This document shows positions 1 to 16,350 of a stretch of 16,350 nt of DNA, piece after piece. Source of the stretch: Candidatus Absconditabacterales bacterium (lineage in GTDB: Bacteria; Patescibacteriota; Gracilibacteria; Absconditabacterales; Absconditicoccaceae). Made by a program: the position numbers and the translations under genes. The number at the start of each line of letters is the position of its first letter. Within the stretch, counting starts at the first letter, position 1. The notes under the pieces are model-generated. The model saw nothing but the letters and a program-made list of their open reading frames with translations. It did not search any database and was not told where the DNA came from. Where the stretch lies: the NCBI GenBank assembly GCA_023228925.1, contig JALOAF010000022.1:1-16350 (forward strand), given 5' to 3'.

Positions 1-66
1 ATTATGCGAGCTTTATTGAAAAATAATACACAATTTGACCATAATTATCATCTTTTAACTACCTAA
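1..66 (+). CDS. Possible C-terminal tail of an upstream gene (partial)
   Basis: Frame 1 is open from the window edge to a TAA at 64-66 and would encode about 21 residues ending QFDHNYHLLTT. The other two forward frames close earlier. There is no recognisable domain, so this could be chance; it is listed only because the next gene starts 196 bases further on and some gene presumably ends near here. Confidence 0.25.
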   Translation: MMRALLKNNTQFDHNYHLLTT

Positions 67-106
67 AATTCTTTATTACTCTTGATTTTCCTTATAATAG
101 GACTTT

Positions 107-222
107 GACAGAAAGAGGGGGATAGGGGGAGATTTCAGAAGGAAGAGGGGAAGATTTCTCGCAAGATAGAGCAATCCATCGAAGTCTTTTCGAGGCAAGC
201 GAAATGACAGTAGAATGATAAG
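107..222. repeat. Dispersed G-rich / CTCGCAAG repeat cluster, copy A
   Basis: This segment is richer in G and C than its surroundings. It holds AAGATTTCTCGCAAG at 151-165 and ATGACAGTAGA at 204-214, both found again at 6716-6942, plus G-runs at 117-130 and 146-149. The counterpart of the G-runs on the other strand is the C-run at 6988-6998. It looks like one unit of an intergenic palindromic repeat family of the 'ctcgcaa...aatgac' type that is scattered through many bacterial genomes. No coding capacity is evident. The rest of 67-261 is AT-rich spacer. Confidence 0.6.
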
Positions 223-261
223 GCGGTTCAAAAAAGATGATAGTTTTTTTAGATTTTAATC

Positions 262-2034
262 ATGTCTATGTTTATAATATCATTAGCGATATTTACATTT
301 ATTTTGACAGTTTTTGAAAATATTTTTTTGGCATTACTTTCATTAATTTTAATCTTGCTTTGGTCTTTGATTAGCGAAAAATTCAAAAAAATTTCTCGTG
401 GATTCTTTTTTATCATATTGGCATTTTTGATTTCGACAATTTCTGTTTTTTTCAAGAATTACAAATATGATCAGAAAATAAAACCTTTGCTGAACACGAC
501 ATGAACGATAGCAAAAAACATGGACGGACCTGTTTGAAAATATTTTGTAGGAACTGGAATAATTTCTGATATTTATTCTTATCAAAAATACGTTTTCCAA
601 GATAATTTTGGGCGTGAATATTTTTTAATCTCTTCCAAAACTTTTGAAATTTGAGATATTGTCTGGTTAAACGGGAATGTATCTTTGGCCTATACAGGTG
701 CTGGAAATATTTTTGATTTTCAGAAACAGTGGAAAGATTTTTCTAGCAAGCCAGAGCTTTCTTGATTGTTTAATTATGAATTTAATTATTCCAAATGGTT
801 GATGATGAAAGATTTTTATGGGACAATTTATGGGCAAAGCTACATAGTTTTCAAAGACAACTGCGAATATAATCGTTTTGCTGATGAAGAAAAATTAGCA
901 ATCTCAGACTCTGATAAATCAAATTCGGCAGAACTAGACAAAAATATTTCAAACTTATCAGCAGAGTTTCAGAAATGAAACTCTCAGACAAGCAAAAATT
1001 CTCAATCATTTTTGTGATCAGGAGATTTTTTTGACGAAAATCAGTCTTCAAAAGAACTATGCAAAAGCCAGATCTCTTTTATCCAAAAAATCAGGAAAGC
1101 CTTGCAAAGAGCAGTAATTTCTGCCTACGGAGAAAATAAACAAGCTGGATTGATTTTGTGAATGTTGGTTTGAGATAGATCCCAAATCCCACCAGACGAA
1201 TATCAATGATTTATCAACTCGGGACTAGTCCATATCATCGCAGTTAGCTGATGAAATATCATTATGATCGTAGTTTTTTTGGGAGCAGTTTTGTTTTTTC
1301 TACCTTTTTATGCTAGGAACGCAGTAAGCTTGCTAACAATTATTTTGTATTCCATGGTCTGTGGACTAGACAGTTCCGTTTTTAGAGCGACAGTGATGTG
1401 ATGACTAGGAATGTTGGCGCTTTTTTGGTGAAAAGAAATCAATATTTGGAGAGCGATGTCTGTTGCGTTTATTATCATGTTGATCATAAATCCATATTTT
1501 TTGACATACGATGTTGGATTTTTGCTTAGTTTTTCAGCGATTATAGGGATCATTTATTTTTGAAAATTGATAGCTGTTTTGCAGAAAGCTTTGGAAAAGA
1601 AAGAAAAATCAGAGCCATTTTTTGATAAAAAAGAAAAAAAGAGATCGTTTTCACTAACTTCAATCAAAAAAGCGATCCAAAAATTTCTCAAAGAGTTTGT
1701 GACTCCTACGGTGGGAGCTACTATTGGAGTTTTACCAGTGATGTTGTTTTTTATGGGAACGACTAATCTAACATGAATTATTGCTAATTTTTTGGTTGTT
1801 CCTATTGTTGCGGTGGTGATGATATACTGATTTATTAGCACGGTTTTGTTTCAAATAATTCCACGGAATATCCGACTTTTGCCAGAAAAATGGTTGTTGA
1901 ATTATGTTTATTTGATGTCTGATTTGGCGCAAGAGTTTTGAATTTATTTGCATGCAGAGGGAACTTGGATCAAGTATTTTTTGTTAGCTTTGTTTATTGT
2001 TTGGTTGTTGTTGGTTCGTCATCGTAGTAGCTAG
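262..2034 (+). CDS. comEC: ComEC/Rec2-type DNA uptake channel, no C-terminal MBL domain
   Basis: 590 residues when TGA is read as glycine (about 18 in-frame TGA). ComEC is the inner-membrane channel that passes single-stranded DNA into the cytoplasm during natural transformation. Seen: N-terminal membrane helices (about residues 1-75), a soluble OB-like part with GTGIISDIY and similar strands, then the competence domain with the signature GLVHIIAVSGGN near residues 322-332, SSVFRATVMGGLG, and NPYFLTYDVGFLLSFSA, followed by several more helices. The protein ends after the helices (LLLVRHRSS), so the C-terminal metallo-beta-lactamase domain of longer relatives (B. subtilis about 776 aa) is absent. 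The ATG at 262 is the first in frame after a TAG at 250; there is no Shine-Dalgarno sequence. The family call is secure; the exact start is less so. Confidence 0.88.
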
Positions 2035-2328
2035 AGAGTCCCTGGGCCTGCTAATTAAATAGTTAATTATTGTTCAAAAATCAACACAAAACAAATATAA
2101 TTAAATTAGCTAAGTAGATTAAAAAATAATACAAACACAAAAATGTAAAAAAAAGGACAAATAACTCAAAAAAAACATCAATTTTATTTCAAAACAACAT
2201 CTACTTATTTTTTAATTTTATAAATTTTTAATTTTTTCTGATTTTATCTTGATTTTTGAAACTATAATATTAAACATATAGAGAATACTTTTCGGCAGTT
2301 TTTTTGTTATTTTAATCTGTTAAAATTC
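2035..2328. other. Gene-free AT-rich spacer before tRNA-Arg
   Basis: No open frame of note on either strand. It holds a small AT hairpin just after comEC (TAATTAA at 2052-2058, TTAATTA at 2063-2069, loop ATAG) and a TATAAT at 2263-2268 that could be the -10 box of the tRNA-Arg transcript. No convincing -35 box sits 16-18 bases upstream of it. Confidence 0.4.
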
Positions 2329-2401
2329 GCTCCTGTAGTTCAGCTGGATAGAATGGCCCTCTCCTAAGGGGCAGATACAGGTTCGAGTCCTGTCGGGAGT
2401 A
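2329..2401 (+). tRNA. tRNA-Arg (anticodon CCT)
   Basis: A complete cloverleaf can be drawn: acceptor GCTCCTG with CGGGAGT, a 4-bp D stem GTTC/GAAT, anticodon stem GCCCT/GGGGC with loop CTCCTAA, and T stem ACAGG/CCTGT with loop TTCGAGT. The discriminator base is A and no CCA is encoded. Anticodon CCT reads AGG, fitting a genome whose arginines are mostly AGA/AGG. Confidence 0.95.
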
Positions 2402-2411
2402 ATTTAGATTT

Positions 2412-2436
2412 GTAATACGATTTTGTATTACTTTCA
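2412..2436 (+). terminator. Hairpin after tRNA-Arg, possible terminator
   Basis: Perfect 7-bp inverted repeat GTAATAC (2412-2418) and GTATTAC (2425-2431) with a 6-base loop, followed by CTTTC. The T tract is short, so termination is only plausible. Confidence 0.4.
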
Positions 2437-2504
2437 ACATTCTAAAACGGCTAATATCTGTATGGTTTGTTGAACAATTATTTTATTTTTTAATTATTAA
2501 TTTT

Positions 2505-2759
2505 ATGACAAAAAAGAAAACTGAAAATCTTTTTCAAAGACACGAAAAAGACACAGGTTCTCCTGAGTTTCAAATTTGAACTTTGACAGAAGAAATTAGT
2601 CTCTTACAATGACATTTACAAATCAATCCAAAAGATTTTGATGCAAAAAGGTCTTTATTAAAAAAAGTAGCAAAAAGAAGAAGACTTTTGAAATATATCA
2701 AAAATCAAGATCTTGATTCTTACTCAAATGTTTCCAAAAGAGTTTGAGTAAAAGTATAA
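2505..2759 (+). CDS. rpsO: 30S ribosomal protein S15
   Basis: 84 residues (E. coli 89). S15 binds the central domain of 16S rRNA early in small-subunit assembly. Family hallmarks are present: RHEKDTGSPEFQI near the N-terminus, the LTEEISLLQGHLQ helix, the KKVAKRRRLLKYIKN block and a final VSKRVGVKV. Three of its four glycines are TGA. The ATG at 2505 gives the expected N-terminal length; the upstream bases are only A/T, with no Shine-Dalgarno. A terminator hairpin begins inside the stop codon, so it is probably transcribed alone or with the upstream tRNA. Confidence 0.95.
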
Positions 2760-2785
2760 TAATAGTTTTTTAACTATTATTTTTT
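2758..2785 (+). terminator. Terminator after rpsO
   Basis: Perfect 10-bp inverted repeat AATAATAGTT (2758-2767) and AACTATTATT (2772-2781) with a TTTT loop, ending in a T run. The first arm overlaps the rpsO stop codon. Confidence 0.65.
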
Positions 2786-2814
2786 AGTTGTTATCAATAA
2801 ATCTACAACAACTA
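2785..2814 (+). promoter_or_regulatory. Hairpin in the leader of rpsA
   Basis: TAGTTGTT (2785-2792) and AACAACTA (2807-2814) form an 8-bp stem with a 14-base loop, about 40 bases before the rpsA start. It may be a leader structure or simply part of the rpsO terminator region; the function is inferred from position only. Confidence 0.3.
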
Positions 2815-2852
2815 ATAATGTAAAATTTTTATTTTTTAATTTTTATATCGTA

Positions 2853-4040
2853 ATGGATTTACAAAAATTTACACAACAACTGCAAAGTTGAGATATTTCT
2901 ATACCTTTAATCAAGGAATGAAATAAAGTAAAATGAATTATTTTAAAGAAAATAGAAAATGGAATATTAGTAGAATGTGATGGCTGAGCTTTTACATGAG
3001 TTATTCTTTCAAAAGAAGTAAAAGAATTGGAAAGAAGTGATTATGATTTAGCTCCAGGTAGAGAAATTGAATTGGAAGTAGTAAACACAAACATCAGACA
3101 TGAAGACGGTTATTATATTGTTTCAGTTACAAAATTATTACAATATGATGTTTGGAAATCAATATTAGCAAAATTTGAAAAAGATGAAATTATCAAAGTT
3201 GTTCCTACTGAAGCAAATCTTGGTGGATTGTTGATAGATATGCATGGAATTAAATGATTTATCCCTCTTTCTCAATTGGCACCAATTCATTATCCAAGAG
3301 TAGAAGATGGAGATCAAGAAGCTATTTTTGATAAATTGTTGGAACTTATAGGAAAAGAAATATCTGTAAGAATTATAAATATTGATGAAGAAGAAAAAAG
3401 AATTATTTTATCAGAAAGAGAAGCTTTAAAAGAAGAAAGAGACAAAGTTTTGGCCGAATTAGCTGTTGGAAAAATATTTGATTGAGTTGTTTCAGGAGTG
3501 TCTTCTTATGGGCTTTTTGTGACAATTGGAGGTACTGTAGAATGATTGGTACATATTTCAGAAATCACTTATTGACATGTTACCAATATTGATAGACTTT
3601 GAAAAATCGGAGATAAATTACAAGTAAAGGTAATTTGACTTGAAAACGGAAAAATATCATTATCTAGTAAAAAACTAAAAGAAGATCCACGATCAGCTCT
3701 GCCAAAAAAACACAAAGTATGAGATATTATCGAATGAGAAGTTGTGAGATTTGTACCTTATGGTGTATTTATCAGAGTATTTGAAGACATAAATGGATTG
3801 GTTCATCTTAGTGAATTATCTCAAAAATCAGTACAAAATCCAAACGAAGTAGTAAAACTTTGAGAAGTAGTAAAAGCAAAATTGATCTTATTAGATCCAA
3901 AAAATAGAAAAATTTGATTGAGTATGAAAGACTCTACTCCAAGTGTAAATAGCGAAGAAAAAACAGCCAAAAAAGTTACAAAAAAACCATCAAAAGGTTT
4001 GGAAGATGTAGTAAAAATGCTAGAAGAAGAAGGAGAATAA
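2853..4040 (+). CDS. rpsA: Ribosomal protein S1-like protein, four S1 domains
   Basis: 395 residues. S1 repeats are OB-fold RNA-binding domains; bacterial S1 recruits mRNA to the 30S subunit. Four repeats are visible: a divergent one at about 22-95, a second at about 110-190, and two canonical ones at about 204-275 (GVVSGVSSYGLFVTI, VEGLVHISEIT) and 289-355 (GEVVRFVPYGVFIRV, NGLVHLSELS, then IGLSMKD). The tail is Lys/Glu-rich. It is shorter than the six-domain E. coli protein (557 aa) and resembles the four-domain forms of Gram-positives and CPR. Its place after rpsO fits a translation role. With Shine-Dalgarno motifs apparently missing upstream of neighbouring genes, initiation may depend more on S1, which is inference. 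Confidence 0.9.
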
Positions 4041-4050
4041 TACAATCAAC

Positions 4051-4072
4051 TATTCACAATCTATTGTGAATA
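4051..4072 (+). terminator. Perfect palindrome after rpsA
   Basis: TATTCACAAT and ATTGTGAATA are exact 10-bp reverse complements separated by CT, 10 bases after the rpsA stop. There is no T tract, so this could be an RNA 3'-end stabiliser, a weak terminator, or a protein-binding operator. Confidence 0.4.
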
Positions 4073-4159
4073 ATTTACATAATCTTATTTAAAAATTTGT
4101 CTGACAATAATCAAATTTAGTATTACAAAATTTTTCTTTATTGTTTCAAAATACACATA

Positions 4160-4200
4160 TACGAAGTTGGACTTTGTGAGGCAACAAGGCCAGCTTCGTA
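4160..4200. repeat. 41-base GC-richer stem-loop
   Basis: TACGAAGTTGG (4160-4170) pairs with CCAGCTTCGTA (4190-4200) over 11 bp with one G-U. CTT at 4172-4174 pairs with AAG at 4186-4188 as an inner extension, with a loop around GAGGC. It is clearly richer in GC than its neighbourhood and is not followed by a T run, so it looks like an inserted palindromic unit or a structured RNA rather than a terminator. Confidence 0.45.
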
Positions 4201-4331
4201 GAATTATTTTGAATAAAAAAAATTTTCAGCAATATTTCTATTTTTGAATAGCAAAACAATTTAGCTGTATTTTACACTAATTTTTTTTGTCTTGAAATTT
4301 TTGAGCAATTATAGATAGTAGAGTAAATTAT

Positions 4332-4349
4332 TTACATAAATTTATGTAA
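4332..4349. promoter_or_regulatory. 18-bp perfect palindrome upstream of tRNA-Leu
   Basis: TTACATAAA (4332-4340) is followed directly by its reverse complement TTTATGTAA (4341-4349), 36 bases before tRNA-Leu. With no spacer it suits a dimeric DNA-binding protein better than an RNA hairpin, but in such AT-rich DNA it may be chance. Confidence 0.3.
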
Positions 4350-4384
4350 TAATTTTTATTGATTTGTTTGATAAAAAAATAAAT

Positions 4385-4466
4385 GCTCAGGTGGTGGAAT
4401 TGGTATACACGTATGCTTGAGGTGCATATGCCGAAAGGCTTGGGGGTTCGAGTCCCCTCTTGAGCA
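4385..4466 (+). tRNA. tRNA-Leu (anticodon GAG)
   Basis: Class II tRNA of 82 bases. Acceptor GCTCAGG pairs with CTTGAGC, discriminator A, no encoded CCA. Anticodon stem TATGC/GCATA carries loop TTGAGGT, giving anticodon GAG for CTC/CTT. The long variable arm (around TGCCGAAAGGCT) and T arm GGGGG/CCCCT with TTCGAGT are typical of leucine tRNAs. Confidence 0.95.
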
Positions 4467-4532
4467 AAAAAGATTAGACTTTTATTGAAATATTATTATA
4501 TAAAACAATAGTTTATATTATTAAAAACAAAA

Positions 4533-4979
4533 ATGACTTTACAGGACAAATTGTTTGCTGATTATATACAAGCTATGAAAGAAAAAGATCTTATCAAAAA
4601 AGCAATATTAAACTATGTAATCGCACAAATAAAAAACAAAAAGATTGAATTGCAAAAAGATTTGGAAGATGGAGAGATAATCAAAATCTTGAAAAAAGAA
4701 ATCAAGTCTTTGATAGAAGCAATATGATTTTTGGAACAAGCAAATAAAGTAGAAGAACTAAAAGAAGAATTAGCCAAAAAACAAGTATTGGAGCAATATC
4801 TTCCACAAACAAAATCAAAAGAAGAAACCAAAGAAATAATTTTGGATTTGATCAAAGAGTTGGGAGTTAGTGAGCTAGCAAAACAGAGATGACAAATTAT
4901 GTGAGCTATTAAATCCAAATACTGAGAAGAAATTGAATGATCTGTAGCAAATGAAATAATCAATGAAATGTTGAAATAG
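4533..4979 (+). CDS. YqeY/GatB-C-terminal-like domain protein
   Basis: 148 residues, the usual size of stand-alone YqeY proteins. The sequence is almost all helical: MTLQDKLFADYIQAMKEKD at the start, a charged middle, then LEQYLPQTKSKEE, KELG and the tail with RGQIMGAIKSKYG that is typical of the family's second half. YqeY resembles the tRNA-binding tail of the GatB amidotransferase subunit; its role is not settled, although an association with tRNA-dependent amidation has been proposed. The ATG at 4533 matches the family N-terminus. It follows tRNA-Leu by 66 bases and may share its transcript. The next gene starts 38 bases downstream on the same strand. Confidence 0.8.
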
Positions 4980-5017
4980 TTGCAATAAATTTTATTTTAT
5001 TATTCATAAAACAATCT

Positions 5018-6682
5018 ATGAAAAGAGTCGCTATAAAAATATTTCTCTCTACTTTTGTTGTTTGAATTTTTTCTTTGTGATTAAATATTGTTTATGGGCA
5101 ATCTAATAATGTAAATGATCCGAACCAATGTAGTACAGTCACAAACTACAATCCTAATTGATATTCAAACAATTCAACAAACTGAACAACATATACAACT
5201 GCATCAGGCTCTGTTTTACAATGGTATATAAATAACGAGAATGCCATTAGATTCGCTGCTTCATGAAACCAATATAATTCTTGAGTTTGTATAAACAGTT
5301 ATACTAATGGAGGAAATGCAGAACTAACAGGATGGAAAAAAGATCTTTGTGGAAGCAGTACAAATCAACTAATCACTCATCAGACAAGCTTATTTAATGC
5401 ATATAAAGTACAAAAACAACTAAATGCAAATAATTGGTGATTTTGAACACATGAGCAGGTATGGCAATTACAAAATTTAATGCAAACAGCTAATTGTCAC
5501 AACAATAGAGACTGTAAACTATGAGTTAATACAATATCAAACTTTCTTTTTTGTAATGTTTGTAAAGCTATAAATAGCGGTTGGATAGAATTAAGTTCCT
5601 TTAATCCAAATAAATGTGATGAGTGATATAAACTAACAGATGACGACTTGTGTTGTGAACCACTGGAATGTAAAGCCCCATCAATCACAATAGATTGACA
5701 AACAAATAAGACTTGATATTCTGGTAATAATGACTTAGCAGTAAAAATAGATTATTCAGAAAACAATGATTGAGCTATAGCGTTTAATACATGAAAAATA
5801 ACAATTACATGATGATCTGGCAAGGATTTTCAAACAAACGATAAAGTAATAAAATTTACATTAACTCCTGATAGTAATTCAAATAAAATAGAAATTGATG
5901 TAGAAAATGGTTGTGCTACTCTAGAGACACAACAATGTTCATGAGCTAAGATAACATTAAATCGTGATATTCCTTGTCAAGATAAAAAAAAATGGGCTCA
6001 ATGTACTAATTCAGGTGATTTTTTATTAAGTGGAGATGCAACAGACTTAAGTGCTTTAAATGGACAAAAATGTAAATTAGAATGATATGACAATAGTGGC
6101 TTAGATTTTTGTCCTGGATGCGATTTTATAAAAAAAAGTGAGAAAAGTTGTGAAGAATCTCACTGATCTTGACGATATGAAGATACTAATTGATGTTGTG
6201 TAAACTGTGGATCGGATAAAAAATGGGATAAAGATAATTGTGTTTGTATAAAAACAAATGCTGACTGTGAATCCAAATGAGAAAGATTAAATGAGAAAAC
6301 TTGTAAATGTGAATGTGATCCTACTAAAAAATGTTGTGGAATTTTATTGAATACTGTAGTTCCATTTATTGGAGATTGTATAGAAATGACCACTCAAAAT
6401 GATGTGTCCTCATCAAACGATTCTAATACAAGTACAGTTAATCAACTAAACGCCTTTCCGTTTCTAATGATGGGTTTAAGTAAAATCGTGGTTACAGTTA
6501 TTTTGATATTTTCATTCCTAATTATAATTGCAGCTTGATTGATGATGACTACTTGAGTATACAGTGAACAAAACTACAAAAAAGGTATGGAACGAGTACA
6601 AAAAGTTGTTGTTGGATTGATACTACTTTGAGCATCTGGACTAATATTAAAACTAATCAATCCGAGCTTTTTTGGAGGATAA
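5018..6682 (+). CDS. Secreted Cys-rich protein with C-terminal two-helix pilin-like module
   Basis: 554 residues, no named family recognised. Seen: a signal peptide (MKRVAIKIFLSTFVV..., cleavage near residue 27), an Asn/Thr/Gln-rich exported region with about 30 cysteines, a beta-rich middle (about 230-320), and a dense cysteine segment at about 348-445 with pairs such as FCPGC, GCCVNC, CVC, CKCEC and KKCC. After a Ser/Asn linker come two hydrophobic helices, about 485-512 and 527-547, separated by GVYSEQNYKKGMERVQK. That helix / charged-loop / helix tail resembles the VirB2/TrbC-like or 'pilin' tails common in CPR bacteria, in which a positively charged loop joins two helices. I infer a surface-anchored or pilus-associated adhesin with disulfide-stabilised ectodomain. 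Glycines are mostly TGA, so it is native to this code. No terminator is clear before the repeats that follow. Confidence 0.6.
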
Positions 6683-7085
6683 AAGGAATGATAATGTGTA
6701 ACAATGGTACTCATAATGACAGTAGAATATGTCATCTCGTTTGTTATTGTTGCAAGAGATCTAATAGTATTAAAGGAAGATTTCTCGCAAGGTAGAGCAA
6801 TCAAAATGATAGTAGATGGATTCTTCGCGTTGCTCAGAATGACAATTGCCTTATGTCATCTCGAGTCGTTATTGTTGCGAGAGATCTAATAGCATTACAG
6901 TAAGATTTCTCGCAAGGTAGAACACTTCGAAATGACAGTAGATGGATTCTTCGCAATGCTCAGAATGACAGAGGATTTGCAAAAGATCCCCCAACCCCCT
7001 TGTTAAGAGGGCTAGCTCAGAATGACGAGCTATTCAAAACAACAGTAAAATGTAAATTATATTTTAACTTTTAATTAAAACTAAA
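6683..7085. other. Gene-free region filled by repeats
   Basis: Both strands are broken by stops. The region is explained mainly by the tandem repeat described separately, plus a short AT-rich leader for the gene at 7086. Confidence 0.55.
6705..7030. repeat. Tandem and dispersed palindromic repeats, copy B
   Basis: Two near-identical units of about 125 bp start at 6731 and 6855 with GTCATCTCG. Each runs through TTATTGTTGC(A/G)AGAGATCT, AAGATTTCTCGCAAG (6777-6791 and 6902-6916) and GATGGATTCTTCGC, and ends in CAGAATGACA. Within each unit TTGCGAGAGATCT and AAGATTTCTCGCAA are near-perfect reverse complements, giving a strong hairpin. The segment around 6985-7010 (GATCCCCCAACCCCCTTG) and GCTCAGAATGACGAGC extend the cluster. 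Motifs are shared with 107-222. This is a non-coding mobile-type repeat of higher GC than the genome background. Confidence 0.75.
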
Positions 7086-7544
7086 ATGGTGAACATTAAA
7101 TTAGAATCTGAATGATATTTAATTGAGAATAAAATTCTTTTTGGAGCAAGTGTTCCACACAAGGATTATATTAATTTTGCGATAGAAATTTGAGAAGATA
7201 TTGTAATAGAAAAACTAGCTTATTCTATCATAGAATACCCTGGAGAATATGATATTGACGGAATTTTCATTAAATCTTTTTGATCAAAAGATGGAAAATT
7301 AAATTATGTTTTTACTATAAATAATAAAACAATAGGACTTATTCAATCTCCTAAAATATTGGAAGAAGATGATATAAGGTCTTTGGATGCTTGGTTGTAT
7401 TTGGATGATGCTGTAGAAAAAAAACTTGAACAATTAGAACTTGAAGGGAAAAAATTTAAACTAGATGCTGAAGGTGGAACATTGAAAATAGAAGAAAAAG
7501 AAAGCGAGCATGCAGAAATTGTTGTTGAAAAAGAAGAAGAATAA
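7086..7544 (+). CDS. Small protein resembling a metallo-beta-lactamase-fold remnant
   Basis: 152 residues. The middle, IIEYPGEYDIDGIFIKSF followed by a strand-rich LNYVFTINNKTIGLIQSP, recalls the 'PGEYEVKG' region of UlaG-like metallo-beta-lactamase-fold proteins common in CPR genomes. The histidine metal-binding motifs of that fold are not visible, and the C-terminal third is a Glu/Lys-rich charged tail, so an enzyme activity is not supported. It starts after an A/T-rich leader with TTTTAATTAAAAC and is followed by a short AT palindrome (7543-7556), then a convergent gene. The family link is a resemblance only; the alternative is an uncharacterised CPR protein. Confidence 0.5.
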
Positions 7545-7664
7545 AAAATATTTTTTGGAAATCTATTGTTAGTAAATTTGTTTAAGTGTTTTTTTATTAA
7601 AAAATATATATAAGAGTTATTGAAAGAAAACAAAACACACAAGTATAATATTTTCAGTTGTCAA

Positions 7665-8207
7665 CTACTCTTTATTTATCAATAAAATTCCATCTCATTC
7701 TTCCATTTCAATTTCTTTATAAATTATTTGCTTTTTTTCTAAATATTCGTATAATCAAAACATCTTAGTTTTGTATTTAATTACATCATCACACACCAAA
7801 ACACTTTTGGTGCTCAATATATCAAAAATATTCATTAAATAATTAGCATACTGACTTTTTTGTCAATCTACAAACACAAAATCTAAAGTGTTTGGAATTA
7901 GTTTTTTTATATCTATTTTCAAAAAATCAAAAGGGTATACAGTTAAATTTTTCAATTCATACTTTCAAATATTTTGTATTCCTTCCAAATAAGCACTGTA
8001 TGATATCTCAAAGGAATATAAAACTCCTCCTCGCTCTTTGATCTTATTTGCTATAAAAATAGAACTATAAGCTACTGCTCATCCTATTTCCAAACAAACT
8101 TTTGGCTTATGTTGTTCCAAAAGTTTTGATAAAAAATTTTCAGTTTCTATGCTAATTATTGGAATGTTTCTATCTGTGCAAGATTTTCTGAGTAAAGAAA
8201 GATTCAT
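7665..8207 (-). CDS. Class I SAM-dependent O-methyltransferase-like protein
   Basis: 180 residues on the reverse strand. The SAM-binding motif I is VCLEIGGAVAYSSIFIA (about 38-53, canonical E-I-G-x-x-x-G-x-S), then a post-I acidic FEIS, then TLDFVFVDGQKSQYANYL (about 108-124), the D-x-V-F-x-D-G-x-K-x-x-Y signature of the catechol-OMT/TrmR (COG4122) group, and VCDDV. The substrate cannot be told from sequence: relatives act on small phenols or on tRNA wobble uridine. It is somewhat shorter than typical (about 210 aa), mainly at the N-terminus. It is transcribed divergently from RNase J across a 55-base spacer, so the two promoters are back to back. Confidence 0.8.
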
Positions 8208-8262
8208 GAGATAGTAAAAAGTAATATAAAAACTTTATTTTAATTTTAAATGAACAAAAACA
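8208..8262. promoter_or_regulatory. Divergent promoter region between methyltransferase and RNase J genes
   Basis: Only 55 A/T-rich bases separate the two start codons, so both promoters must lie here or inside the coding ends. On the reverse strand TATATT (8223-8228) is a possible -10 box. On the forward strand TTTATTTTAATTTTAAATG is the same kind of T/A run seen before other starts in this window. Confidence 0.35.
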
Positions 8263-10197
8263 ATGAGTGAAAACAATTTATTTTGAAATCTTAATATTGA
8301 TTTCAGCAAAAAAAACAAACAAAAAAGATGAAGACAAAATCAAAAGACAAACTGAGGATTGGATAAAGATCTGACATCTGAAGCTTTTTTGCGTCATCTA
8401 TGAAAAAGCGAATTAGATGATATTCAAGACCCTTACAAACTAGTAAAAAAATGAGAAAAACCAGTAAAAATTTGAAGTTTAATGTGATTGGAGCAAGTAT
8501 GACAATGTATGTTTGTAGAATATGAAAATGATCTAATTATTATTGATGCAGCTATGGAATTTACAACACATGCAAATTTTTGAGCAGATTATATTATTCC
8601 AGATATTAGTTATATCAAAAAAAATATCAAAAAACTTAGAGGAATAATTATCACACACGGTCATTTGGACCATGTTTGATCTTTGAGAGATATTTTGCCA
8701 GAACTTTGATATCCAATGATTTATACTACTCCATTGAGTCTTGGTATTATAAAGAAAACATTTGAAAATCCAAAAGATGCAGAAAAAATAAGATATAAAA
8801 TTATAGATCCAGATATCGATATTTTGAAATTGTGATGCTTTACTTTAGAATTTGTTCCAGTAAATCACAACATTCCTGAAACATTAGCTGTGTCTATACA
8901 TACCCCAAAAGGAATAATTTTTGACTCTGCAGACTTCAAGATTGATCATACTCCTGCTATTGATAGACCTGCAGACTTAGCAAAAATAGCAAGAATTGGA
9001 GCAGAATGAGTAAAACTTTATATTTGAGATAGTCTAGGAGCAAACAAAAAATGACGATCTATTTCAGAAAAAGAAATTTGAGAAAATTTGGACGAACTAA
9101 TACAAAAAACTAAAACTAGAATGCTTATAGCTACTTTTGCATCTAATGTTTGAAGAATTATTCAAATTGTAAATAGTGCTATTAAAGCAAATAAAACTAT
9201 TTTTCTGTCTGGTAGATCTATGGTAAACAATATAGAAATTTGTCAGCAACTTGGCTACATAAAAGTACCAAAATGATATATTCGTAAACTAAGTGAAGAG
9301 GTCGATACTTTCCCAGATGATCAGGTTTTGATACTTTCTACTGGGGCTCAAGGAGAAGAATTTGCTGCACTTACTAGAATGTCTAGAAATGAACACAATT
9401 TCTTACAACTTAGAAAATGAGACACTATATTGATGTCAGCGACTCCAATTCCAGGTAACGAATGATCTGTAAATACAATGATAAATAATTTAATTTTTAA
9501 AGATATCAATCTAATCACAAACGATGATATCGATGTGCATGCTAGTGGTCATGGCTCTATGGAAGATCACAAGCTAATGTTATCTTTGTTAAAACCAGAA
9601 TTTTTCTTACCATACTTTATGCCAGCAAAAGAAAGATATGCTCATAAGCATTTAGCAATGGATATGTGAATGCCTGAATCTCGTATTTTGATGCCTATGA
9701 AAAATGGAGAAATAATTGAAATGTATGATGATGTAGTGCTAATTTGAAAAGAAAAATTAAAACTGGATACTGTGATGGTAGATGGAAAATGAAAATGACA
9801 TATGTCTGGAGAATATGTGATCAAAGCTCGTAGTATTATGGCAGAAGATGGTGTGCTTGCTCTAATTTTCAAGGTAGATGCAAAAACAAAAGAATTGGTC
9901 GGAAATATTCAAATAGAATCTAGAGGTTTTGTTTATTCTTCTGAAGTTAAAGATATCCACACAAAAGTGGTAGAATTTGCTAGAGCAAAATATATAGAAA
10001 ATTCAAAAAGAAAAATGCAAGTAAAAGATAATTTAAAAATTTTGAAGGAAGATTTATGAGAATTTATTATGCAAATTATTGGTAGAGTCCCTATGGTTAT
10101 GCCGATGTTTGTTTATATCAACAAAGACTCCAAAGATGATATAAGTAAAGATGAGGCAATTCTTGGAATGACACTAGATGAACAAGGAGGAACCTAG
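8263..10197 (+). CDS. rnj: Ribonuclease J, with altered beta-CASP motif C
   Basis: 644 residues; usual length about 555. RNase J is a metallo-beta-lactamase/beta-CASP nuclease for mRNA decay and rRNA 5' maturation. Seen: a basic low-complexity N-terminal extension of about 70 residues (KKNKQKRGRQNQK), then HGHLDHVGS (His132, His134, Asp136, His137), VNHNIPET (His202), SADFKID (Asp224), [10 protein letters not shown], and [12 protein letters not shown] (motif B, His430). The usual PVHGEYR (motif C) reads [14 protein letters not shown] here, so the expected metal-binding histidine is Phe452. An ATG at 8250 lies in another frame and meets TAA at once, so 8263 is the chosen start. The C-terminal domain is present. 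A bidirectional terminator follows. Confidence 0.93.
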
Positions 10198-10207
10198 TCT
10201 GCTAAAT

Positions 10208-10253
10208 AAAAAAACTGATAGAACTTTAATTTAAAAAGCTATCAGTTTTTTTT
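10208..10253. terminator. Bidirectional terminator between RNase J and pyrophosphatase
   Basis: AAAAAAACTGATAG (10208-10221) and CTATCAGTTTTTTT (10239-10252) form a long stem with a 17-base loop. The A run on one arm and T run on the other let it serve both convergent genes. Confidence 0.85.
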
Positions 10254-10293
10254 ATATTTGAAAATTGTAATAGTTGTAGCTACTAATCTTAAG

Positions 10294-10839
10294 TTATTTT
10301 TGTTTCTTTTCATATCTAATAATAGCTTTATCAACATATTCATAGGCCTCTCATTTTGTACCAAATCCATGAACTACTGTGTGTTCATATTTTTTTGTTT
10401 CTAACTTTTTGTATTCTTTAAAAAATATTCAAAGTTCTTCTTTGATATGTTTTGGTATATCATTGATTCATTGGTATTCATCCCAACGAGGGTCTATTTT
10501 ATGGATAGGAACAGCTATCAATTTTGGATCTTGTCATTTTTCATCTACGACATCCAAAACACCTAATAATCTTGCTTTTATTACACAGCCACTAAAAGTG
10601 GGATAAGTTCACAATAAAAACACATCAACAGCATCTCAATCTAATTCTGTAGTACTTGGTATAAATCAATAATCAAAAGGATAAAACATACTATGATGTA
10701 TTACACGATCTAATTTAAAATAACCTCACTCTTCATCATATTCATATTTATTGGTTGATCATTTTGGTATGTCTATAACTACATTTACGATACCTTCTTT
10801 TTTGTCATGATAAGCAGGAATTTTTTTGTATAAATTCAT
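10294..10839 (-). CDS. ppa: Inorganic pyrophosphatase, family I
   Basis: 181 residues (E. coli 176). Cytoplasmic Mg-dependent hydrolysis of pyrophosphate to two phosphates, pulling biosynthetic reactions forward. Seen: VVIDIPKGSTNKYEYDEE (substrate-binding Lys and Glu), FYPFDYGFIPST, and the signature DGDAVDVFLLG with Asp67, Asp69 and Asp72, where Ala replaces the usual Pro; then KARLLGVLDVVDEKGQDPK and IAVP. Several invariant glycines (PKGS, YGFIP, DGDA) are TGA. It is monocistronic, convergent with RNase J and divergent from rsmH across 115 bases containing TATAAT-like boxes. Confidence 0.95.
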
Positions 10840-10954
10840 TTTTTCTTTTAAAATAATAAAATTATAGAATTTACTTATAATAAAAGAGAATTCTTTTGCA
10901 ATTTAATTTTAATTTTATAGACTAAATTTGATTTAAAATTCTATTTATAGATTT

Positions 10955-11830
10955 ATGATAAAGCATTTTCCCGTAATGTTGAACGAAGTTTTGGAATCAG
11001 TTCCAACAAATTGTAAAATAATTGTAGATTGAACATTAGGACACTGATGACACTCAAAAGCAATTTTAGAAAAAATTTTTAGTATAAAAAAACTTTTGGG
11101 ATTTGATTTAGATCCAAATATTTTGGAAGATACTAAAGATAGATTAAAAGAGTTCTGAAATAAAATAGAATTTATTTGATCTTCTTATGTAAATGTTCCT
11201 AAATTTTTATGAAAACAAAAAGCTGATTTTATTTTGCTGGACTTAGGAGTAAATATGGAACATTTTAAGGACTGAAAACGTGGTTTTTCTCTGAATTATG
11301 ATTCGCAACTTGATATGAGGTTTGATAATAAAAATTGAAAGTCAGCTTATGATATTATTAACAATTATTCTGAAAAAGAGCTGACAAAAGTTTTTGTAGA
11401 TTATGCAGAATTTTCTATTTTGAAAGCAGAAGAAATTGCTAAAATTATAGTCACAAAAAGAAGAAATAAAAAAATAGAAAGTACTTTTGAACTAAAAGCC
11501 TTGCTAAACCAAGTAGGTCTTTGACAAAAAGCTAGCACTGTAATTTTTCAAGCAATTAGGATTGAAACTAATAAAGAAATTGATAATCTAAAAATGTTGT
11601 TGGACAATCTTCCAACAATTTTGTCTGAATGATGAAGATGTGGGATTATTACATTTCATAGTCTAGAAGATAGAATTGTAAAAAATTATTTTAAAGATTT
11701 ATCTAAATCTGGCTTATTTGAATTAGTTTACAAGAAAGCAATCCCTGCAACTTATCAAGAAGTTCTAAAAAATAGAGCTAGTAGGAGTGCAAAATATAGA
11801 GTAATAGAAAAAACATTTATACAAAATTAA
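10955..11830 (+). CDS. rsmH: 16S rRNA m4C1402 methyltransferase RsmH
   Basis: 291 residues (E. coli 313). RsmH N4-methylates C1402 in the 16S decoding centre using SAM. Seen: HFPVMLNEVLESV at the start, the SAM loop VDGTLGHGGHSKAIL in which three glycines are TGA, GFDLDP, DFILLDLGVN, KRGFSLNYDSQLDMRFD, STVIFQAIRIETNKEI, GGRCGIITFHSLEDRIVKNYF, and the tail NRASRSAKYRVIEK. These are all family landmarks, so the gene is intact. The FtsL-like gene starts 9 bases after the stop, an operon arrangement copied from the division/cell-wall cluster of other bacteria. Confidence 0.96.
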
Positions 11831-11838
11831 ATGATTTA

Positions 11839-12210
11839 ATGAAAAAGTTTGCTTTTATATCTACAAATTCAATTAAAGAATATTATAGTTTTTTGTTGAA
11901 CAAACAAAAATCACATAAATTTATTATAGATACAATAAAAATATCTTGATTATTTGTGTTTTTAGCATTATGTTGATTTATTTATTTGCGTTTTGTTTCT
12001 TTAGCATCTACTGAATGATATTTTTTGAGAAAAGCAAACAACGAATTAGCTTCTATACAATTTAAACAAGAAATAGTAAAAACAGAAATATTGGAACAGA
12101 CACAAAGAAATCGAGAAAGAATGTACTGAACCAATCAAACAAAAAAAATTATAGAAATTCGTCCAGAAATAGTAAAAGTTCCCAACAAAACTGAACTAAG
12201 TTATAAATAA
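11839..12210 (+). CDS. ftsL: FtsL-like cell division protein
   Basis: 123 residues. Seen: a cytoplasmic basic N-terminus of about 33 residues, one membrane helix (about 34-56, ISGLFVFLALCGFIYLRFV), then a predicted coiled coil (about 60-95, with EQ/KQ heptad-like spacing) and a short Pro-containing tail. This is the size and topology of FtsL/FtsB, bitopic proteins that link early and late divisome parts and activate septal peptidoglycan synthesis. Sequence similarity is weak, so the call leans on topology and on its position right after rsmH. An ATG at 11831 overlaps the rsmH stop region but meets TAA after two codons, so 11839 is used. The tail ends 8 bases before the end of the convergent gene. 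Confidence 0.65.
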
Positions 12211-12218
12211 TATATAGC

Positions 12219-12779
12219 TTAAAATTTGGCTAAAAAATCTTCTTTGAAGAAGATTTTTTGTATTTGTGAAATTTCGCTATATATTTTTAAGTACATTTGA
12301 GACTGATAATCATAACCTGTATCCAAAGATTGATGTACACTTGTATATGGCCGATTTTTTATATTTTCAACCAAAGCCAGCCTAAGAGGCTCAAAAGCTA
12401 CACAACTTTCAATTTTTTCAAGTTCCTCCAAATCTATTTTGTAAGATTTAAATCTTCAATTAAACACAGGAAGTCATTTGGAAGACAAAATATTTTCATT
12501 TTTTTTCTTAAAATACATAGCATAACTTACTTGTATTTTTCTCATAAAATCAGACAATTTGAGTCCTTCTTCTTGATTTTTTATTACAAAATAAAAGCTA
12601 TTTGGTAATATGCTATAAGCTGAAATGCTTATCCCACTATGATCTAATATATTTGAAACAATATATAAAATAAAAGTTTTGTAATCATCAGAATTTTCAA
12701 ACAAGATATTGTTGTTGAATCCTTTATTTGATATTAGATAATAAGTATTTTCTAAAAATTTATCACGATAATTTCACAT
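12219..12779 (-). CDS. Y1/REP-associated transposase-like protein, catalytic HUH lost
   Basis: 186 residues, uninterrupted in code 25. The central block ISAYSILPNSFYFVIKN, then LSDFMRKIQVSYAMYFKKK and GLPVFNGRFKSYKID, matches the layout of TnpA_REP/IS200-like Y1 transposases (typically AYCLMPNHFHLLLK, FMRKL.T.YTMYFNKKY, G.LFQGRFK). Those enzymes nick single-stranded DNA with a His-U-His motif and a tyrosine. Here both histidines are replaced (Ser61-Phe62-Tyr63), so DNA cleavage is unlikely. The N-terminus keeps YYLISNKG and DDYKTF, matching the usual YHIYNRG and DDYxRF. An open frame with in-frame TGA glycines argues for retention as a DNA- or RNA-binding protein rather than decay. Its last codons contain the ftsL terminator. 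Confidence 0.7.
12232..12259. terminator. Bidirectional terminator inside the Y1-like gene
   Basis: AAAAAATCTTCTT (12232-12244) and AAGAAGATTTTTT (12247-12259) are exact reverse complements separated by TG. It serves the rsmH-ftsL operon. It lies within the coding 3' end of the opposite-strand gene, where it encodes KIFFKEDFL. Confidence 0.8.
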
Positions 12780-13023
12780 TTTTAATCTAATTAATTAGAT
12801 AAAAATTAAAATCTAAAATAACTTATTTAATAAATAGTATATAAAAAAACTTCTTCCAATCAAGAAAAAACAATTGACAAACAACAATTTTACCAAAAAA
12901 CAAGAATTAAGTAAAGTTTTTCTTTTTTTGGTTATGAAATAGATTTCATTATCTTGATTTTCTTGCAAAAATATATATTATCAGTAAATATAATTTGTAA
13001 ATTTATTTTATAATTGTTTTTTC
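12780..13023. other. AT-rich divergent spacer before trxB
   Basis: No coding frame. It holds a perfect 7-bp inverted repeat ATGAAAT/ATTTCAT (12934-12940 and 12943-12949), about 75 bases before trxB, which could be an operator, and the promoters of two divergent genes. TATAATT at 12988-12994 and 13009-13015 are candidate -10 boxes for trxB; no clear -35 is seen. Confidence 0.4.
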
Positions 13024-13977
<954 letters not shown>

Positions 13978-13988
13978 ACAAAAAATAA

Positions 13989-14039
13989 AGGCGATAGTTT
14001 GTAAACAGAATGGTTGATGAATAAAAATATAAATCGCCT
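13989..14039 (+). other. Inverted repeat between trxB and trxA
   Basis: AGGCGAT (13989-13995) and ATCGCCT (14033-14039) are exact reverse complements around a 37-base interior. They may close a structured element in the intergenic RNA or be chance; no T tract follows, so it is not a typical terminator. Confidence 0.3.
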
Positions 14040-14095
14040 AGCTAGATTGTAAAATAAAAATTATATAAACTTTTAATCTTTAATTAAATTATAAA

Positions 14096-14431
14096 ATGTG
14101 AGTAGTACATGTAGAATGAATTGAACAATTTAAAAAAGAGGTCTTAGAATTTAAATGAGTGGTATTGATTGATTTTTGGGCAGAACGATGCGGGCCTTGT
14201 AGAATGTTGTGACCAATTTTGGAAGAATTAGATACAGAAAACCAATGAAAAAATGTAAAAATTGTAAAAATTAATGTAGAAAATCCTGAAAACTGACCTT
14301 TGGCTGGAAGTTTTCAAGTAAGTTCTATCCCTGCTGTTTTTGTTCTAAAAGATGGAGAAGTTGTCAAACCAATAATTGGAGTTAATCCAAAAAATGTTTA
14401 TCAAGGGATTGTTGACGAACTCCTGGCTTAA
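14096..14431 (+). CDS. trxA: Thioredoxin
   Basis: 111 residues, normal thioredoxin size. Cytoplasmic disulfide reductase, recharged by TrxB. Seen: VVLIDFWAERCGPCRM with the active-site pair Cys32-Gly-Pro-Cys35 (same numbering as E. coli), the buried Asp of DFWA, KIVKINVENPE, the cis-proline in SSIPAVFVLKDGE, and a C-terminal helix ending VDELLA. Arg replaces the more common Trp or Pro before CGPC. Six of eleven glycines are TGA. The ATG at 14096 gives MGVVHVEGIEQF, a normal start; the leader is an A/T run without a Shine-Dalgarno. A terminator follows, so it ends the trx unit. Confidence 0.95.
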
Positions 14432-14449
14432 TAGATTGAATTATAAAAT

Positions 14450-14480
14450 AAAAAATCCTGAATAAATCTCAGGATTTTTT
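14450..14480. terminator. Bidirectional terminator after trxA
   Basis: AAAAAATCCTGA (14450-14461) and TCAGGATTTTTT (14469-14480) are exact reverse complements with a 7-base loop. It separates trxA from the convergent glycosidase fragment. Confidence 0.88.
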
Positions 14481-14499
14481 ATAATAAATATATTTTTAA

Positions 14500-15378
14500 T
14501 TAATTTAATTCTTTTAATTTATTTTTAAACAAATAAATAAGGTAATCTATCATTTCTTTTTGTTCTCACTGTAATTTAATTTTAGAAAAAGAATCTACAA
14601 TGTTTTGATACCTATTTTTTTGTTCTTGAAGTGAATATTTTTTTGATCGTTCATCTTTTACCACCAACATAATAGTGTCAATTCTTGTTTTTACTTTGGT
14701 ACTTACAGTATAATTATTAGTTGTTGACACAATGGTATCTGACTTAGGAGCATTTTTATCTTCTATAATAACAAAAGCATCCATCATATTTCTTCAAGGT
14801 CCAGCAACATATTTTTCATCATAAATCATAGCTTTTGTTCATCAATTATCTAATAATATTGCATTATAACATTTAAATGTTTTTATTAAATAATCAGCTA
14901 AACTAGAAAATGTTACATTATCTACATATCACATATATATTGTTAAATTGTCTTCTGTGTTACAAATAAATGTTTTGTTTCATGCCTTTCATTGTTTTGG
15001 ATCTGAATTCATTTTATTATTATTAACTGCTATATTGATACCATTACTTACCAAAGAATACATCATAATTCAATTGTATATATTGCTTAATCAAGGGTGA
15101 TTTCGTTGTCAAGAACTTTTGTCCCAAAACCATCATGAATCAGGATCTCATACAACAGGTCTTCATAAAACCATACTTGAATTTCATTCTGTATCAAAAC
15201 CAAAAACTGCTTGTCAGTTAGCTATATCTGTTTTCCATTTGGACATGAGCTTTCAGTCAGCAATTCTCAATTGATCTGTTGTATTTCAGTTACACGAAGA
15301 AGAGTATGCCTTCTCATTTGGACAAAAAAAACCTCAATTTATAGCCAATGGTTCTTTCAAATTATTTTTTTTATTCAC
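14500..15378 (-). pseudogene. Phosphodiester glycosidase (NAGPA domain), 5'-truncated
   Basis: About 292 residues remain. The NAGPA/DUF2233 family cleaves N-acetylglucosamine phosphodiesters and occurs in exported bacterial proteins. Seen: LAINGGFFCPNE (INGGFF at 13-18 from the GTG), LGRPVVGDPDSG, NGIMMYSLVSNG, LTIYMGYVDN, SSLADYLIKTFKCYNAILLDNGGTKAM (Asn178-Gly179-Gly180) and a charged C-terminal helix region of about 75 residues. Glycines are mostly TGA. The frame has no ATG before INGGFF; upstream it soon meets a TAA in the neighbouring foreign gene. The signal peptide and first strands that normally precede INGGFF are missing. GTG at 15378 overlaps the upstream gene's stop and could allow coupled translation, but I favour a gene that lost its 5' end to recombination. 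Confidence 0.75.
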
Positions 15379-16045
15379 TAGGTTTACTGACAGATAGTGG
15401 ACTGTTATTTAATATATGCCCAACCTCTTCCCAGCCAGTTAGAAAGGCATAATTATAGCGGGCGGGCAAGGCAAAGACATACTTCGCATTACGGCCGAGT
15501 TCGCTAGGATTAATCGGCGCGGCTCCAATATGGAATTCTCCCGCTTGCAAATTATTCCATTGTTTGATGGTAAAAACCATAATCGGAATATCCTGCCGTG
15601 GATTTTGAGATGTCCATTGCGGATGGCGGATAGAAATTAACGACCCCCGCTCCACAATTGCGTATGGTTCAGGAGTATAACCTTCCCATTCATTTGTCAC
15701 TATAGAATAGCTCTTCCAATTCTGAGGTAACTGAAAACTAAATTCGTATTCCGAATTGCTGTAAACAATTTCTTCTGGCTGGTTAACTTGTTGATTGACG
15801 TTTTCGTTCTGATCGACAACGGGTTGATTGTTCTGATTTTGGTTTTGTTTCACTTGTTGGAGCTGATCAATTTGGTTTTGCAACAGCGTAATTTGTTGTT
15901 GAAAGGATTGCTCAGCCGATCTTAAGCGAGAGGATTGCAAAGCGTAAACTACGCCGCCAACGACCAATGCTGTAATAACAACAGCTACAACTATTACCCA
16001 AATGTTTGTTGAATTTTGTTCTTGCGGCATGTTTTGTTCATTCAT
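15371..16045 (-). CDS. Membrane-anchored CPR-type protein of foreign, standard-code origin
   Basis: 224 residues. Seen: a short polar N-terminus, one membrane helix (about 15-36, IWVIVVAVVITALVVGGVVY), a coiled coil (about 40-68), a Gln/Asn-rich linker (about 65-90), and an extracellular domain beginning YEFSFQLPQNWKSYS, similar in form to the PsbP-like domains of anchored CPR lipoprotein-like proteins. The function is unknown. All nine glycines use GGN and none TGA; arginines are mainly CGN, and GC content is visibly above every neighbour. Reading it in the standard code or code 25 gives the same protein. The stop codon abuts the glycosidase remnant. Upstream, TATAAT on the reverse strand (16076-16081) is a possible -10 box. 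Confidence 0.75.
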   Translation of the reverse strand: MNEQNMPQEQNSTNIWVIVVAVVITALVVGGVVYALQSSRLRSAEQSFQQQITLLQNQIDQLQQVKQNQNQNNQPVVDQNENVNQQVNQPEEIVYSNSEYEFSFQLPQNWKSYSIVTNEWEGYTPEPYAIVERGSLISIRHPQWTSQNPRQDIPIMVFTIKQWNNLQAGEFHIGAAPINPSELGRNAKYVFALPARYNYAFLTGWEEVGHILNNSPLSVSKPSE

Positions 16046-16075
16046 AATTTTGTTAGTTAAGTTTAAATTGACTAA

Positions 16076-16081
16076 ATTATA
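16076..16081 (-). promoter_or_regulatory. Candidate -10 box of the foreign gene
   Basis: Exact TATAAT on the reverse strand, 30 bases before the start codon. The expected -35 position (around 16099-16104) does not match TTGACA well. Confidence 0.3.
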
Positions 16082-16141
16082 TCATAAGCTATGTTCGACC
16101 CGAAATAAATTGCCAAAAAAATCTTAAAAAATAAAAAAAAA

Positions 16142-16165
16142 GGGTCTAGAGTACTTTAGCAAAAA
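16142..16165. mobile_element. Possible right terminal repeat of the IS1595-type element
   Basis: GGGTCTAGAGTACTTTAGC begins right after an A run and overlaps the transposase stop codon. IS1595-type elements often end with GG-rich termini close to the transposase stop. The matching inverted copy would be outside the window, so this is position-based inference. Confidence 0.35.
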
Positions 16166-16350
16166 TTTTTACATACTCTTTTAGGATTTTAGATAACTTA
16201 TTATAAATATCTTCTCACTCTATTCAACAATTAAATCTAAATTCACATTCTTTCAGGTGTAATGCAAACTTTTCTTTACTTACTCCATTGAATTTAGCTA
16301 ATCTTCTTTTACAATAACTTCGGAAACTTTCTATTCAATTAATATGTTGT
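16146..16350 (-). CDS. IS1595/ISXO2-type transposase, C-terminus (partial)
   Basis: The last 67 residues are in the window; the rest lies beyond the right edge. They read HINGIESFRSYCKRRLAKF, NGVSKEKFALHLKECEFRFN and a helical tail ending KIFAKVL. The HINGIESFWSFAKRRL...HLKECEWRFN block is the conserved C-terminal end of ISXO2-like DDE transposases (IS1595 family), which move by cut-and-paste. Glycines in HING, CGI and EGE are TGA, so the element is adapted to code 25 and is not part of the neighbouring standard-code DNA. The stop codon lies within a few bases of a possible element end (see the entry at 16142). Confidence 0.85.

Follow-up and report, generated by a model that had tools for sequence, protein, structure and literature searches.

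How did a gene spelled in the standard genetic code come to lie among genes that read TGA as glycine, in bacteria often argued to be isolated by this change of code? The question is raised by a stretch of 16,350 nucleotides from a Candidatus Absconditabacterales bacterium (contig JALOAF010000022.1 of GenBank assembly GCA_023228925.1), which we call the window. A sequence-only reading of it had proposed that one gene near its end can be read in both codes and was recently transferred into a code-25 host. Here we follow that gene, the insert gene, through its spelling, its relatives, its two edges and its likely source (Table 1).

The host is a code-25 relative of the Absconditabacterales. The window is probably a complete contig, since 16350, its own length, is the longest contig listed for the neighbouring protein. 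Outside the insert gene, in-frame TGA read as glycine makes up 174 of the 325 glycine codons in the window (table 25), and every one of the 16 other ORFs contains at least three in-frame TGA codons. The neighbouring gene encodes a phosphodiester glycosidase (NAGPA; 47.3 bits to PF09992, cut-off 25) with 18 TGA glycines. Its nearest organism-named relative is P0122, from an Absconditabacterales bacterium (70% identity), with which the table-25 reading aligns well, with glycine at many TGA sites. The 49 genomes of the class of G071 contained no relative of P0122, which is uninformative in a set with no positive genome. Elsewhere in the window we observed a ComEC-like competence protein at 262-2034 (above the domain cut-off of TIGR00360, below the cut-off of TIGR00361), repeated units of 44 and 57 nt at 6711-6970 (two copies of each, 91% alike) and, on the same contig as these repeats, an ORF at 12219-12779 resembling a REP-associated tyrosine transposase (NF047646, 27.1 bits, cut-off 80).

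Table 1. Features of the window and of the putative donor loci (positions prefixed with a locus name refer to that locus)
Feature	Position	Strand	Remarks
Host phosphodiester glycosidase (NAGPA, PF09992)	14500..15345	minus	TGA-rich, N-terminally truncated
Left border: insert tail, from stop codon to host join	15342..15373	minus	similarity to donor cassette tail
Insert gene, 224-aa protein	15371..16045	minus	stop TAA; standard-code spelling
Insert cassette leader	16046..16141	minus	cassette leaders of L126, L136 and L138 are homologues
Extended -10-like TATGATATAAT	16076-16086	minus	within the cassette leader
AAAAAAAA adjoining the IS end	16134..16141	.	candidate half of an 8-bp target duplication, the second copy of which would lie beyond the contig
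IS1595-family element, right end, running off the contig	16142..16350	minus	NF033547, terminal repeat
IS terminal repeat GGGTCTAGAGTACTTTAG	16142-16159	minus	directly after the leader homology
Transposase C-terminus	16146-16349	minus	three in-frame TGA glycines
Integron-like cassette arrays	L142:544-12300, L144:5610-8484, L146:58-3111		12 gene bodies, attC-like hairpin spacers; G539 and G665

The gene boundaries given by the sequence-only reading were right, as were its statements on spelling; the gene lies on the minus strand. The ORF is open under tables 11 and 25 alike and, having no in-frame TGA and a TAA stop, needs no rewriting to be read in either code. All nine of its glycines are GGN (GGC 4, GGA 2, GGG 2, GGT 1, TGA 0), an outcome with a probability of 0.001 at the TGA rate of the other ORFs, and six of its seven arginines are CGN, compared with 33 of 120 in those ORFs, a comparison set that includes the partial IS ORF, the NAGPA ORF from 15378 and the ORF at 4937-6682, which overlaps a neighbour. 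The gene was also correctly described as richer in GC: 0.413 (41.3%) compared with 0.286 (28.6%) for 1-14499. Among windows of 675 bases, those within 1-14499 have a mean GC of 0.285 (sd 0.034, maximum 0.372), and the highest of the whole contig begins at 15370.

The codon-usage and k-mer comparison that the sequence-only reading had proposed as a check agrees with a foreign origin. Tetranucleotide distance peaks at the insert (0.597, window start 15376), compared with a maximum of 0.513 for windows ending before 15371, making the insert the extreme of the contig. When synonymous codons were scored by log-likelihood for the genome G539 over the host (57 G539 ORFs against 15 host ORFs, the latter with the partial IS ORF dropped and the NAGPA ORF and ORF 4937-6682 trimmed), the insert gene reached +18.3 nats per 100 codons, while host ORFs ranged from -15.8 to +3.9. 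On the left, a change-point in GC alone falls at 15092 (support 15071-15418), since GC is raised in the 5' part of the adjoining gene too; we based the edges of the insert on homology instead.

The insert protein has an N-terminal membrane helix, a coiled coil and a putative C-terminal PsbP-like domain, and most likely forms a stalk that is anchored in the membrane and bears the PsbP-like domain outside the cytoplasm. Over residues 1-111, its identity to the five best matches is 80-83% (89-92 of 111), and identities range from 79 to 92 of 111 in the 14 highest-scoring of the 26 anchor relatives. P0150, the sole member of these 26 to carry an organism name, belongs to Patescibacteria. The C-terminal domain is at most 74% identical to relatives among the matches listed (P0005), and one relative of the protein, P0007, is named PsbP-related by NCBI. 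In this putative domain the protein resembles the PsbP-like proteins of Bacillota and Patescibacteria; among the close relatives of its anchor, the one with an organism name (1 of 26) is from Patescibacteria. A tree of the PsbP-like domain places it among CPR-type proteins, together with Candidatus Parcubacteria KatS3mg098. The inner groups have supports of 98/91 and 99/91, and the wider group of 17 rows has 93/61; the wide tree has few columns, an unsettled bootstrap and long branches, and we used the inner groups alone. This protein phylogeny, which had also been proposed as a check, is in line with transfer.

Reading a code-25 gene with table 4 puts tryptophan at its glycine positions, an indirect mark that annotation with table 25 hides. 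None of the 26 anchor relatives has tryptophan at the insert gene's glycine positions, nor does any of the 119 matches listed among 2578 relatives. Several relatives of the neighbouring NAGPA protein do show the mark (P0124, for instance, has 27 W and 7 G). Among the RNase J matches listed from 286 Patescibacteria genomes, none contained more than one TGA, and no code-25 genome came to light in this set. Scans of viral contigs by protein, profile and pattern found no relative, and plasmid and phage records gave no match to the insert protein.

A source can be sought among standard-code genomes. In one class of the phylum of KatS3mg098, 67 of 380 genomes have a match. One of these, G539, matches over residues 1-192 at 58%, and its homology extends to the DNA: 79% identity in the window from 15714 to 16139, from the 5' part of the coding region through the non-coding leader. 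In a second genome, G665, the leader alone matches (82%), placed before a different gene. The leader homology reaches 16139 in L126 and 16141 in L136; the leader-only match in G665 likewise extends to 16141. No near-identical donor was found, the best DNA identity being 79%, and further donor searches of 2, 45, 7 and 86 genomes brought weak gain or none; strong matches in the 86-genome search start at residue 69 of P0146 or later, past the anchor. None of ten Patescibacteria loci inspected for the promoter motif TATGATATAAT contains it, so we did not take it as a mark of the donor. The insert gene thus most likely derives, to judge from its homologies, from a standard-code ultra-small bacterium of the Patescibacteria, where a related gene is part of an integron-like series of cassettes. 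The proposed recent transfer into a code-25 host is borne out to this extent: the nearest relatives speak for an origin in standard-code Patescibacteria, and the composition suggests a recent arrival.

Both edges of the insert are visible, and the truncated host gene and flanking IS element that mark them go beyond what the sequence-only reading had mentioned. At the left edge, the NAGPA protein of the window lacks the ~72 N-terminal residues that precede the AINGG motif in the intact relative P0122, an N-terminus also present in the intact relatives P0123 and P0125. Similarity to the donor cassette tail stops at 15342, in TGGCTA (15347-15342), and the residues common to intact NAGPA proteins start at the Ala codon 15345-15343, so insert and host gene meet within a few bases at TGGCTA. 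The tail similarity is weak, with a score reached by 7 of 1000 shuffles for L126 and 124 of 1000 for L136. Within what is left of the NAGPA frame, a GTG (15378-15376) lies across the end of the insert gene; coupled translation from this codon could yield the truncated glycosidase, lacking its original N-terminus. P0123 is nearly identical to the NAGPA protein of the window in its C-terminal half and diverged in its N-terminal half, a pattern that looks as if the gene recombined as a mosaic.

At the right edge, the leader homology gives way to an IS1595-type element, whose terminal repeat GGGTCTAGAGTACTTTAG starts at 16142. The 67 amino acids present of its transposase match profile positions 174-213 of 215 of NF033547 (E 1.1e-9; 38.5 bits, compared with a whole-protein cut-off of 75), which places the right flank in the IS1595 transposase family. 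Three of the four glycines in this tail are written TGA, so the element fits the code-25 host. The octamer CTAGACCC of this terminus also ends IS1595 copies in L157 and L158, and in L158 is inverted at both ends; it was found in 2 of 30 IS1595-type loci from Patescibacteria genomes, the remaining loci ending differently. No matching 8-bp flanks surround the L158 copy, where both inverted ends are present. Another member of the family, the IS1016-like ISApl4, makes A/T-rich 8-bp target duplications with AAAAAAAA among them, according to the excerpted text of PMC12561309. The window element resembles ISApl4, as described there, in transposase family, in its inverted end starting with GGG and in the candidate duplication AAAAAAAA; unlike it, the window element has one visible end and uses TGA for glycine. 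A candidate second terminal repeat at the left edge was rejected, as the alignment score in 15340-15430 was reached by 12.4% of shuffles and by 66 of 338 other windows.

Taken together, we consider it probable that a cassette from Patescibacteria related to G539 integrated into the NAGPA gene of a code-25 Absconditabacterales cell and was then hit by an IS1595 insertion. In such a scenario, a cassette of a single gene, complete with leader and promoter-like site, would have come from a standard-code lineage related to G539 and been taken up by the Absconditabacterales cell. Illegitimate recombination, using the few bases of microhomology in TGGCTA, would then have joined it within the NAGPA gene, and a resident TGA-coded IS1595-type element would afterwards have inserted in its A-rich leader. 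The spelling, the homology of protein and leader to standard-code Patescibacteria, the truncated host gene and the IS terminus at the right edge are observed directly; we infer the route of uptake and the order of these events, as we do the expression and function of the gene. Natural transformation is a possible route, given the ComEC-like gene, on circumstantial grounds.

The contig itself could instead be at fault, with Patescibacteria DNA from the same sample fused to an Absconditabacterales contig when the library was made, amplified or assembled. The insert does lie less than 1 kb from the contig end, where chimeras are common, and A/T-rich tracts and microhomology are present at the joins. 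Because both flanks are written in code 25, however, two false joins would be required, and the right one would have had to hit the terminal repeat of a TGA-coded IS exactly. The visible overlap at the left join is ~6 bases, and k-mer assemblers usually require longer ones. The insert protein is also found on two contigs, the longest of 16397 bases compared with the 16350 of the window, although both may stem from different versions of a single assembly. A truncated NAGPA gene on one side and an insert ending exactly at an IS repeat on the other favour real integration, since a code-25 IS lying exactly within foreign DNA is hard to obtain by a misjoin and easy to obtain in a code-25 cell. We therefore regard a chimera as unlikely, though still to be taken seriously.

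Two biological alternatives fare worse. The IS1595 family is known to carry passenger genes, and an IS terminus touches the insert, so that the gene might have arrived as a passenger of the element rather than as a cassette struck later. Yet the terminal repeat at 16142 separates transposase from gene, leaving the gene outside this end of the IS; the opposite edge yields only the chance-level alignment noted above in place of a second repeat; and the donor cassette leader runs right up to the element. This makes a passenger origin very improbable. That the gene is native to code-25 bacteria and kept its GGN and CGN spelling by chance or selection has in its favour the small number of glycines, just nine, and the spread of codon scores among host ORFs up to the value given above; glycine and arginine codons, GC, tetranucleotides and codon scores all deviate, however, and the non-coding leader too matches standard-code genomes. 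We find a native origin scarcely credible.

For the favoured reading, entry of a cassette from Patescibacteria, the arrays around the donor relatives are of interest in themselves. In L142 (contig 29 of G539), six bodies separated by spacers, each with one to three genes, contain the main ORFs, which share one strand. Each body starts with GTTRNRY, finishes with its complement or nearly so, and has its own inverted repeat of 26-46 bases. By eye, the L142 cargo looks like restriction-modification genes, an HD-domain protein and an rRNA methyltransferase. Across the three loci, the two ends of each of the 12 bodies pair with each other, at a mean of 22.5 of 25 bases, compared with 12.1 between different bodies; the highest between-body value, 23 of 25, presumably reflects homologous bodies in L142 and L146. 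Two control stretches of G539, 12.3 kb each, contained no GTT-to-AAC pair among 9 inverted repeats. The spacers fold as hairpins with paired arms beside TAAC and GTT cores (nine were folded, using RNA parameters and without shuffled controls), and measure 102-199 nt except for one of 567 nt (L144, 6024-6590). Judged by pairing and folding of the sequences, the donor loci have an inverse core, paired arms and a complementary core within the cassette, an architecture that is attC-like. Rfam models at gathering scores had no match in the 38,494 bases of the donor loci.

These arrays resemble integron cassettes and CALINs (attC clusters without IntI; excerpts of PMC9668308) in their one-strand bodies, the complementary GTT and AAC cores within a body and the hairpin spacers with paired arms. 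Unlike those described there, the donor bodies carry, in addition to the 7-base core, a long inverted repeat with 21-23 paired positions among the first 25 bases. They also differ from integrons in the enzyme at hand: none of nine genomes of the order of G539 has an IntI above the 265-bit cut-off of TIGR02249, and G539 has a XerA-like recombinase (NF040815, 234.8 bits, cut-off 220). Matches to TIGR02249 below its cut-off occur also in all 14 control genomes, and two full proteins scored 203.2 and 218.8. The XerA-like gene adjoins a gene that looks by eye like FtsK, so it may be an ordinary chromosome-dimer recombinase. The window copy, for its part, has no cassette core sites at its ends, and no core or spacer motif of the G539 type lies near the insert; within the insert, only the leader motif occurs, at 16108, and CATAAC is found only elsewhere in the window. 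Without a core motif at the insert, entry by cassette recombination is not visible.

The excerpted text of PMC12259885 reports 2697 integrons in groundwater MAGs, and among the literature matches listed, as excerpted, none describes integron arrays in Patescibacteria, CPR or Parcubacteria. We tentatively suggest, as an idea that may well prove wrong, that standard-code Patescibacteria hold an undescribed integron-like variant, with its own leader, body-specific inverted repeats and hairpin spacers, no IntI and perhaps movement by XerA, from which cassettes would enter Absconditabacteria across the UGA-glycine boundary, TGA-coded IS elements then landing in them.

The sequence-only reading had called the gene a rare visible example of such transfer, a description not supported as it stands: 126 genes acquired by HGT are already reported for Vampirococcus lugosii, a member of the Absconditabacteria, in the excerpted text of PMC8080830, and the event is thus not categorically new. 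The same excerpts discuss the altered code as hindering transfer out of these bacteria and also as shielding them against incoming DNA, and those of PMC10746230 discuss phages possibly crossing between codes. The window resembles Vampirococcus in that a code-25 host acquires genes, there from various donors. Unlike that report, as excerpted, it concerns one gene, still un-ameliorated, whose edges could be located, together with a host gene cut short and a donor locus of cassette type. What is new here is the probable cassette origin, both edges and the donor arrays.

A recent-looking entry with both edges visible allows one to ask which genes enter, namely those without a TGA stop. In sampled stretches of two G539 contigs, 53 of 58 ORFs of at least 200 aa have TAA or TAG as their stop, so a code-25 recipient could read the majority of such a donor's genes correctly from the outset. 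The donor arrays, if they are real integrons, would be a gene-exchange system for tiny, host-dependent bacteria.
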